A stretch of 64,000 nucleotides of DNA from positions 72,704,305 to 72,768,304 of the forward strand of contig NC_089498.1 in assembly GCF_036850765.1 (NCBI RefSeq). Direction: 5' to 3'. How positions within the stretch are numbered: position 1 is the stretch's first letter; every line of letters starts with the position of its first letter. This document shows positions 14,156-60,080 of this stretch, in pieces. The translations under genes and the position numbers were made by a program. Under the pieces are notes generated by a model. That model saw only the letters and a list, made by a program, of their open reading frames with translations, ran no database searches and had not been told where the DNA came from. The DNA is from Saccopteryx bilineata. Taxonomy: Eukaryota; Chordata; Mammalia; Chiroptera; Emballonuridae.

Positions 14156-14237
14156 CCAGGGTGTCAGAGCCGCTCTCCACCGTCTCATTGACCTTCCTTG
14201 CAACTCTGGCCACCGCCTCACCCATCTTCCTCAGCAT
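14156..14237 (-). CDS. LRRC20: LRRC20, first coding exon (residues 1-27)
   Basis: On the minus strand an ATG at 14237-14235 opens 27 codons plus one base. The peptide begins MLRKMGEAVARVARKVN and ends near SGSDTL. This matches my recollection of the N-terminus of LRRC20 (leucine-rich repeat containing 20), a small cytosolic-type leucine-rich repeat protein of unestablished function. A strong donor (G|GTGAGT, exon ending at 14156) follows directly. A good acceptor lies upstream (pyrimidine-rich TCCTCCCCAG, exon from 14300), leaving about 63 nt of 5' UTR in this exon. Exon phase after the donor is 1, fitting a following Asp codon. No leucine-rich repeat exons were found at 1-14155, so they lie beyond the left edge after a long intron. 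A near-identical 60-bp copy of this exon sits at 15116-15175. Confidence 0.88.
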
Positions 14238-14300
14238 GCAGACTCGGGTGTCCTGCTGCCAGCCACCAGGCCGGTCTGCTGCTCACAAGGGGGCCTGCAC
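14238..14300 (-). other. LRRC20: LRRC20 5' UTR part of exon 2
   Basis: The inferred acceptor AG is the complement of 14301-14302 and is preceded by a pyrimidine tract on the minus strand. The exon then runs through untranslated sequence to the ATG at 14237. The boundary is inferred from splice consensus only. Confidence 0.6.
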
Positions 14301-15058: not shown

Positions 15059-15404
15059 CCTGACCAGGCGGTGGCGCAGAGGATAGAGCGTTGGCCTGGG
15101 ATGCTGAGGACTTAGCATTAACCTTCCTTGCAACTCTGGCCACCACCTCACCCATCTTCCTCAGCATGCAGACTCAGGTTAGAAACCCCGAGGTTGCCGG
15201 CTTGAGTGCAGGGTCGCTGGCTTGAGCGTGGGATCATAGACATGACCCCATGGTGGCTGGCTTTAGCCCAAATGTCGCTGGCTTGAAGCCCAAGGTTGCT
15301 GGCTTGAGCCCAAGGTCACTGGCTTGAGCAAGGGGTCACTCGCTCTGCTGGAGTCCCCCAGTCAAGGCACATATGAGAAACTAATCAATGAACAACTAAC
15401 TTCC
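15059..15404 (+). repeat. tRNA-derived bat SINE carrying an inserted LRRC20 exon copy
   Basis: The head (CCTGACCAGGCGGTGGCGCAG) and the repeated 'GGCTTGAGC' body are those of the sense subtype seen intact at 52642-52972. After GATGCTGAGGAC the SINE is broken by about 64 bp of foreign sequence, then resumes at about 15176 with AGGTTAGAAACCCC. The 3' end is truncated after CAATGAACAACTAA, where a MIR begins. Confidence 0.85.
15116..15175 (-). pseudogene. Partial copy of the LRRC20 first coding exon inside a SINE
   Basis: These 60 bases match 14186-14245 at an offset of exactly 930 bp with two differences. One is a G-to-A at a CpG; the other turns ATTG into ATTA. On the minus strand the copy contains a few 5' UTR bases, the ATG and codons for MLRKMGEVVARVARKVN, with one Ala-to-Val change relative to the exon. 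It lacks the exon's acceptor and donor, and the frame runs on into SINE sequence. I infer a non-coding templated insertion and not a second exon. Confidence 0.85.
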
Positions 15405-15510
15405 TGTTTATTACAGAGAAGGAAACTGAGGCACAGAGAGGGACTAAATGACCTGACCGAGGTCAAAGTGAGTAAGTGACAATGGCTCAGCCAGCTCCGC
15501 ATTCAGTGCT
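15405..15510 (-). repeat. MIR SINE fragment, antisense
   Basis: Blocks 'AGAGAAGGAAACTGAGGCACAG' and 'CTAAATGACCTGACCGAGGTCA' (partial) are the reverse MIR core, abutting the truncated SINE. Confidence 0.7.
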
Positions 15511-15914
15511 CACTTCTTTACTCACATCACCAATAGCAAAACCCCACAATGAAAACGAACTTGAGGCCAAGGTCAAAGCCCCCCTTTGCCCTCAAATCCC
15601 AATCCAAGCTTTGCACACAGCTCACAGAGCTCTAATGAACTCAGTCTGAGGGTCACAGGCAGAAGACTATAAAGAGCAGAGGAAAAGGGGTGAGAATAGA
15701 GCTCAGAGCTGCTAACAAATACCAAGAAAAAGTCCCCCAGTGCTCAGGCAGGGCAGCCAAGGCCAAGTTGGGCGCTGGCCGACCCGCCCATCTGCCTCCG
15801 TGCTGAGCTCAGTGTGTATGTGCATCTCACCAGGGAGGCTGACGAGGAAGGCGTAAGACATGCTGCAGTGGGATAAGACTGTTTTTTGGGACAGGCCTAA
15901 TGCCTAACTGCTAA

Positions 15915-23116: not shown

Positions 23117-23674
23117 CCGTATTTCCCCGAAAATAAGACAGTGTCTTATATTAATTTTTTTGCTCCTAAAGACACGCTAGGTCTTATTTTCAAGGGATGT
23201 CTTCTTTTTCCATGAACAAGAATTCACTTAAAAAAAATACTTTATTGATTTTACAGAGACAGGAGAGAAAGAGGAGCATGGAATGGGAAATAACAACTCA
23301 TAGTTGCTTCAGGCTAGTTGTTCACTGATTGCTTGCTGTATGTGCCTTGACCTGGAAAGCCCAGGGTTTCGAACCGGCAACCTTGGCATTCCAAGCTGAA
23401 GGTTTATCCACTGTGCCACCGCAGGCCAGGCAAGAATTCACTTTTATTGTTGAACAAAAAAATCAATATTTACTCCTATACTGTAGTCATGTTATCACAA
23501 ACATCAGCATAACCAGCCAAACTCTGAATTCCATCAAGAATTTCTTGTGACTATTTCAATGTACAACAATCTACCATTTCCTCAAAAATAAGACAGTGTC
23601 TTATATTAACTTTTGCTCCTAAAGACGCGCTAGGTCTTATTTTCGGGGGATGTCTTATTTTCAGGGAAACAGGG
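23117..23674. mobile_element. Tc1/mariner-like element with decayed transposase tail, SINE-interrupted
   Basis: The terminal repeats begin CCGTATTTCCCCGAAAATAAGA and its reverse, although the right end has decayed to ...CAGGGAAACAGGG. TA dinucleotides flank both ends (23115-23116, 23675-23676). The minus strand between holds an open stretch reading EILDGIQSLAGYADVCDN, which I take to be a transposase C-terminal remnant. A SINE at 23230-23430 splits it. Confidence 0.75.
23230..23430 (-). repeat. Short bat SINE inserted in the mariner-like element
   Basis: Antisense copy of the short subtype. The target duplication CAAGAATTCACTT is at 23217-23229 and 23431-23443. Confidence 0.9.
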
Positions 23675-54105: not shown

Positions 54106-54208
54106 CATATAAATATAAGCACAGCCATGGCAATCTGAACTCTGTTTAGTGTAAGGAAAATAAAGAGTGTCAATTGAATAGGCCTTGAGACTTCTAGGTC
54201 GCAACATA

Positions 54209-55140
54209 TAGTGTGTCTGTAAAGTCATGGTGTACTTTTGACCAGTCACAGGAAAGCAACAAAAGACGATAGAAATGTGAAATCTGCACCAAATAAAAGG
54301 AAAACCCTCCCAGTTTCTGTAGGATGATGTAGCAGCATGTGCGCATGCGCAGATGATGACGTAACACCATGTATACAACGGAGCAGCCCACAGCCATGCC
54401 AGTCGAGATGTGGACGGTACAGAGCAGGGGTCCCCAAACTTTTTACACAGGGGGCCAGTTCACTGTCCCTCAGACTGTTGGAGGGCTGGATTATAAAACT
54501 ATGAACAAATCCCTATGCACACTGCACAAATCTTATTTTAAAGTAAAAAAACAAAATGGGAACAAATACAATATTTAAAATAAAGAACAAGTAAATTTAA
54601 ATGAACAAACTGACCAGTATTTCAATGGGAACTATGCTCCTCTCCCTGACCATCAATGAAAGAGGTGCCCCTTCTGGAAGTGCAACGGGGGCCGGATAAA
54701 TGGACTCAGGGGGCCGCATGTGGCCCGCGGGCCGTAGTTTGGGGACCCCTGGTACAGAGAAAAGTTCAGTGTGTTCTGTGGCTCGCTAAATTCAAATCTG
54801 TAACCAAAGTGCAACGTGAATATCGGCACGTTTATAACGAAGCACCACCACATAGGAATAACATTAGTTGGAGAGGGATAAGCAGTTGAAGGAAACCGGC
54901 AGTTTGGTGGAGAAACCCCGTTCTGGTAGGCCATAAGTCAGTGATGAGTCTGTAGAGGCTATATGGGATAGCTACCTAAGGAGCCCTAAAATGTCTGCGT
55001 GAGACCACATCGAACTGCACTGAATAGGTATGAAACTGGGAGAGTTTTCCTTTTATTTGGTGCAGATTTCACATTTCTATCATCTTTTGTTGCTTTCCTG
55101 TGACCAGTCAAAAGTGCACCATGACTTTACGGACACACTG
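54209..55140 (+). mobile_element. Mariner-family element with transposase N-terminal remnant
   Basis: Terminal inverted repeats of over 100 bp pair TAGTGTGTCTGTAAAGTCATGG with CCATGACTTTACGGACACACTG. TA flanks both ends (54207-54208, 55141-55142). Inside, the plus strand encodes transposase helix-turn-helix sequence such as QREYRHVYNEAPPHRNNI and, after a frame change, SLVEKPRSGRP, typical of mariner. The middle and C-terminus are deleted. A hAT element is inserted at 54425-54751. Confidence 0.88.
54425..54751. mobile_element. Non-autonomous hAT element inserted in the mariner
   Basis: Termini CAGGGGTCCCCAAAC and GTTTGGGGACCCCTG with a perfect 8-bp duplication GTACAGAG (54417-54424 and 54752-54759). 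It splits the mariner transposase frame. Confidence 0.96.
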
Positions 55141-55355
55141 TAGTATAAAAAGTTATTTTCATAATTATGTCCCTGATTCACCAAGAGAAGGTTGAATTGT
55201 TTTCTGTTTAAGGTAGTAAAAAGTTTTAAATCCATATTAGAAAATTTTTTATCCAAAATAATTAAAATTATTTACTTTTTGAAAGTTGAACTGTTTTCTG
55301 CTATACAAAATGACTCAATTTCCAGATGCCTTTTGAATTGTTACTCTAATTCTTA

Positions 55356-57489: not shown

Positions 57490-57590
57490 CCGTATTTCAT
57501 TAAATATTTTAACATGCCATTTGGTTCAGAATATTTTTTTTCTTATTTTCCTCAAAACCTTAGGTATGTCTTACGGAGCGAAAAATACGG
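57490..57590. mobile_element. Short Tc1/mariner-like MITE (about 101 bp)
   Basis: TA flanks CCGTATTTCATTAAA and GAGCGAAAAATACGG. Its inside is the reverse of the left part of the element at 59759-60080, so it is an internally deleted relative in the opposite orientation. Confidence 0.8.
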
Positions 57591-59758: not shown

Positions 59759-60080
59759 CTGTATTTTTCGCTCCATAAGATGCATCTGACCATAAGACGC
59801 ACCTAGGGTTTTAAGGAGTAAAATAAGAAAAAAAATATTCTGAACCAAATGGAGTGTTAAAATATTTTATAAAATATACCATAATAATATTCCAACAATG
59901 TAAACTCAACAGCAGTATTAACAACCATTAGCAGTGTTATTAACAAATGAGAAGAGACTTTAATGTTCAAATACTCTTTTAGTTGTCTGGGAACCACAGC
60001 AGCTAAAAAAAATGAACATTTGCTCCATAAGACACACTTTTTTTGGGGGGGGGAGTGCGTCTATGGAGCGAAAAATACGG
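59759..60080. mobile_element. Tc1/mariner-like MITE (322 bp)
   Basis: Termini CTGTATTTTTCGCTCCATAA and GGAGCGAAAAATACGG. The right flank is TA (60081-60082) and the left is CA, probably mutated TA. No coding sequence is clear. Confidence 0.82.

Follow-up and report, generated by a model that had tools for sequence, protein, structure and literature searches.

The closest described relatives of the insertion reported here are templated insertions and template switches. Class 2 templated sequence insertions, as characterized in the part of the work by Onozawa and Aplan used here (PMC5110952), are copy-and-paste patches that leave the donor intact and carry neither a poly(A) tract nor a target repeat of at least 5 bp; their donors are distant, and their experimental sizes are 73–414 bp. 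Templated insertions linked to MMBIR are short germline insertions from nearby DNA, and 'direct duplications' were the most abundant class in both subjects of that study (Osia et al., PMC8421209, in part). In the same part of that source, the search is built for inverted copies of templates no more than 100 bp away, the direct class lies in quasi-palindromes, and one mismatch in a join is tolerated. Short-range template switching in great apes also gives germline insertions from a nearby template, with a median of 12 and a maximum of 128 bases, in a model that copies in reverse orientation (Walker et al., PMC7954356, in part). Pol theta mediated end joining draws on templates that are adjacent or many kb off; the portion of PMC7454005 used here cites insertions of 2–35 bp from mouse class switching and treats microhomology as typical. 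For human recombination hotspots, germline template-switching insertions are reported together with an excess of structural variants up to the resection length of ~2 kb (PMC7615360, in part).

In a 64-kb window of the Saccopteryx bilineata genome (the whole stretch of DNA analysed, to which positions refer unless stated otherwise), 15116–15179 is a direct copy of 14186–14249 (61/64 identical, ungapped, E = 4e-24; blastn, plus/plus alignment). As the preliminary description had proposed, the copy is an exon piece lodged within a SINE, which resumes in register beyond the insert. The features of the locus are as follows.

14156–14252, minus strand: donor LRRC20 start-codon exon (reading frame, further exon matches, splice-site candidates)
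14186–14247, minus strand: copied donor stretch, 62 bp (within the 61/64 blastn match to 15116–15179, which extends to 14249)
15059–15115, plus strand: 5' portion of the host SINE, with TTAG as its last bases, most likely its own (consensus CCAG; alignment with 28 genomic copies)
15116–15177, plus strand: inserted exon piece of 62 bp, reduced to 60 bp should AG at 15176–15177 be a target repeat (blastn, genome searches, join analysis)
15178–15399, plus strand: remainder of the host SINE, in register from GTT onward and ending in AACAACTAA (genome search, alignment with 28 copies)

Donor end and copy start are separated by 867 bp, and on the LRRC20 strand the copy sits upstream of the start-codon exon. 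With donor and copy as queries, only two matching places were found in the 2.6-Gb genome, in searches that skip very common words. We rejected a larger old duplication, as the sequences flanking the two stretches show no alignment, and a processed pseudogene as the origin, as the genome searches gave no third match.

Judged from its sequence, the source gene is LRRC20, because a genome search found three further exon matches that share its contig and strand (C9, minus strand, contig positions 72689076, 72666799 and 72643926); their order is that expected of a minus-strand gene. The frame of the start-codon exon, MLRKMGEAVARVARKVNETVESGSDTL, matches the human LRRC20 protein at 26 of 27 residues. 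On the minus strand, the A of the ATG lies at 14237 and the splice donor GT starts from 14155. The 5' limit of the exon is uncertain, with candidates at 14252 and ~14300: the acceptor is ambiguous within 14237–14300, and the pyrimidine tract is best, judged by eye, near 14300, in which case the exon would extend past the limit listed above. The copied stretch falls within this exon with its ATG, which bears out its earlier identification as the source. Both ends of the copy stop inside the exon, and the exon's own splice sites are therefore absent from it, also as first described; an exon duplication with function, by contrast, is recognized by retained splice sites. On reading the sequence, the ATG of the copy opens an 81-codon frame that extends into the SINE and its flank, and no function is indicated for the copy.

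The sequence from 15059 to 15399 minus the insert was identified as a SINE in a genome search with the joined flanks as query. The SINE search gave 8,969 first-look candidates, the best 40 of which were scored. The 28 copies aligned here are the 30 loci of the joined-flank search minus the host locus (L013) and a 200-bp locus (L006); the loci of a separate search included the host locus (L001), places already among the 28 (L002–L005 and L008) and a short locus (L007). The host element, aligned here with its genomic copies, is a putative Ves-type bat SINE. Like the Ves-type SINEs in the part of PMC4436864 used here, it looks tRNA-type and has many genomic copies, and the LRRC20 insert is no part of that SINE. 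An origin of the insert in the SINE family itself, under which the first interpretation would have fallen, was rejected: the 60 bp are absent from all 28 copies (0/28), and the genome searches returned no third match. Internally, at 15243–15344, the SINE has about four arrayed 20-bp units, TGAGCCCAAGGTCGCTGGCT. At its far end the SINE stops at AACAACTAA and lacks the continuation that the consensus of the other copies has, and the sequence directly after it (15400–15520) is a putative MIR element.

At the insertion spot, the 28 copies read GAGGAC-CCAG-GTT(C/T)GAAACC, and the host locus reads GAGGAC-TTAG, followed by the insert and GTTAGAAACC. The four bases after GAGGAC are CCAG in 20 copies, TCAG in three, CTAG in two, and TTAG, GCAG and CCAT in one each; two pyrimidines followed by AG are thus present in 26 of 28. 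A random 4-mer would be TTAG with a chance of 1/256, against 1/28 for the SINE copies (1.5% if the two sites are independent), and would fit the pyrimidine-pyrimidine-AG pattern with a chance of 1/64, against 26/28. TTAG had been read as four filler bases; given its alignment to the consensus CCAG and the prevalence of the pattern, it most likely derives from the CCAG of the SINE through two C-to-T changes. Judged by the exact letters only, a SINE origin is favoured no more than about four- to nine-fold. The query that retrieved the 28 copies already contained TTAG, and copies with TTAG could be slightly over-represented; as the 28 are the copies closest to the host SINE, its divergence from their consensus is biased low. 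TTAG is uncommon in the family (1/28), and a filler origin, which additionally requires added bases and a 2-bp loss of SINE sequence, is nonetheless unlikely. An unrelated SINE copy (L041) likewise has TTAG at this consensus position and contains no insert, so CC can change to TT without one. If TTAG is assigned to the SINE, no break is left in the element to either side of the insert, and the insertion would be clean, without filler or loss. The 28-copy alignment, in register on both sides, agrees with the earlier observation that the SINE resumes past the insertion.

With TTAG counted as SINE, the insert is the 62 bp at 15116–15177, between TTAG and GTT; alternatively, it is 60 bp followed by a repeated AG, a 2-bp target repeat. 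Microhomology is 0 bp at the left join and 2 bp (GT) at the right, where AGGT of the SINE also faces GGGT of the donor if one mismatch is allowed, as it is for MMBIR-linked insertions. When 200,000 placements were drawn at random from the 11 kb around the site, 13% had microhomology of at least 2 bp on one side; the observed 2 bp are thus within chance (P = 0.13), and the joins prove no microhomology mechanism. The marks of retroposition are also lacking, as the preliminary description had noted: there is no A- or T-run of at least five bases in 15100–15200, and any target repeat at the insert is limited to 2 bp. LINE-1 retroposed copies are recognized by a poly(A) tract together with a target repeat of at least 5 bp, and the insert has neither. 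Retroposition of an LRRC20 RNA fragment by LINE-1, as a class 1 templated insertion or a processed pseudogene, would explain why the insert is fully exonic. This origin is nevertheless extremely improbable, given the absence of A/T runs, a target repeat of at most 2 bp where class 1 has at least 5 bp (PMC5110952, in part), and an insertion site only 0.87 kb from LRRC20's own exon.

The position of the insert within a SINE also suits a chimeric element, produced if reverse transcriptase switched templates while the SINE itself was inserting, and LINE-1 chimeras with other RNAs have been reported (PMC13174262, in part). Such a chimera would, however, require the SINE to insert 0.87 kb from the same exon that it had captured; moreover, read in the SINE's orientation, the RNA used as template would run antisense to LRRC20 mRNA. 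We consider this origin very improbable.

Up to 15177, copy and donor differ at three positions (15120, 15145 and 15176), all G-to-A. Two of the three fall at CpGs, and the donor stretch has no other CpG; the copy retains neither. The third difference (15176) counts unless AG at 15176–15177 is a 2-bp target repeat. The preliminary description was right about G-to-A change at CpG and, counting over about 60 bp, gave two differences with one at CpG. Its suggestion of some age holds: because of the three G-to-A differences and the loss of both donor CpGs, the copy is, on this sequence comparison, not recent. The same differences, and the exact fit of the insert into one position of the SINE, argue against an artefact of assembly or haplotype merging, for which we see very little probability. 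Outside CpGs, one of 58 positions of the insert has changed (1.7%, interval 0.04–9.6%), compared with 13 of 259 in the host SINE; the difference is not significant (Fisher P = 0.48), and the insertion therefore cannot be dated well after the SINE. In age it may be close to the SINE or clearly younger.

We conclude that the insert is probably a local patch for which the LRRC20 exon served as template while a break was repaired or templates were switched, with the donor left intact and nothing lost from the SINE. A break or stalled fork would have arisen inside the SINE, and a DNA polymerase acting in cis would have copied the 62-bp patch from the exon ~0.87 kb away on the same chromosome, either through synthesis-dependent end joining or through a template switch. 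The single local donor among the matches found, the direct orientation, the SINE in register, the lack of filler or loss and the absence of retroposition marks support such a patch, and the microhomology of 0 and 2 bp, at chance level, counts against it. Templated insertion in break repair, the explanation offered at the outset, thus still reads best, and TTAG, then taken as filler and a clue at the junction, drops out as most likely SINE. The distance to the donor would be on the same scale as the resection length at human hotspots.

An RNA template deserves separate consideration, since the copied piece is wholly exonic. A random 62-bp donor would be wholly exonic by chance for ~1.8–4.2% of 2,000 positions or 0.35–0.84% of 10,000 (the ranges reflect the exon's 5' limit). 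In experimental templated insertions, transcribed sequence is enriched, and reverse-transcriptase inhibitors cause a more than three-fold drop (PMC5110952, in part); PMC12065846 (in part) deals with repair templated by RNA in human cells. On this account, reverse transcription of nascent or spliced LRRC20 RNA close to the break could have produced the patch. It crosses no exon-exon junction, however, and a DNA template serves equally well. The coincidence with an exon is probably inflated, as exon copies would stay recognizable for longer than intron copies and would catch a reader's eye, and insertion as close as 0.87 kb to the exon of origin would not be expected of a free mRNA. RNA-templated repair is unlikely. 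Slightly less likely still is its specific form, in which LRRC20 RNA at the site of its own transcription was the template and the copy would be a germline relic of a break repaired in cis from RNA. If true, exon-only content beside its own gene would be a mark of such repair.

The preferred reading, a DNA-templated patch in cis, makes this an event of a known kind that matches none of the operational definitions above in full, the donor not being distant and the copy not inverted. Like class 2 insertions, the copy-and-paste patch has an intact donor, no poly(A) tract and no target repeat of at least 5 bp. It differs from them in its ~62-bp size and in its donor, 0.87 kb away with no other match in the genome searches; as for the end-joining marks of that class, namely small deletion, microhomology and added bases, TTAG is most likely SINE and the microhomology of 0 and 2 bp is at chance level (P = 0.13). 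It resembles the MMBIR-linked insertions in being short and from nearby DNA. That search was aimed at inverted copies from within 100 bp, and its direct class lay in quasi-palindromes, whereas this copy is direct and 0.87 kb from its donor, with microhomology not above chance. The nearby template recalls great-ape template switching, whereas the reverse orientation required by the four-point template-switch model is lacking (plus/plus alignment). Its template distance suits Pol theta mediated end joining, whereas 62 bp exceeds the cited 2–35 bp, and the microhomology typical of that pathway is here 0–2 bp. By analogy, the LRRC20 copy would work like published templated insertions and template switches. 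We would place it in the broad class of short local non-tandem duplications.

Other local pairs were surveyed in 33 records (168,623 bases), comprising the window, the 28 SINE loci (L014–L041), L006, L007 and two LRRC20 exon loci (L042 and L043). Pairs were kept at 30–300 bp, at least 80% identity, a gap of at most 10 kb and a median depth of at most 2 among the records on at least one side. Five of 283 non-overlapping local pairs passed, counts from which no rate is derivable because the event was the reason for choosing the window, and SINEs the reason for most of the other records. Among the five, none but the LRRC20 pair is confined to two genomic places; the other four (three in the window, one in L017) have at least 40 genome matches each, self included, and are therefore interspersed repeats. 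The inverted pair at 54207–54317 and 55032–55142 (94% over 111 bp, 715 bp apart) is a young interspersed repeat, since its listed genome matches (at least 40) are 96–100% identical, and is possibly a DNA transposon. A direct pair at 23121–23208 and 23576–23661 (90% over 88 bp) is an interspersed repeat by the best 40 of 877 first-look candidates, and an inverted pair at 57493–57576 and 59790–59876 (86% over 87 bp, 2.2 kb apart) has at least 40 genome matches.

The LRRC20 copy is a well-resolved single example of a short local copy-and-paste insertion, for which the SINE host gives the empty-site sequence. Its lesson is that 'filler' at a junction should be compared with the consensus of the host repeat before it is used as a mark of repair. 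Collected genome-wide, insertions of unique sequence in SINEs would offer clean breakpoints and could show whether exonic donors exceed chance.
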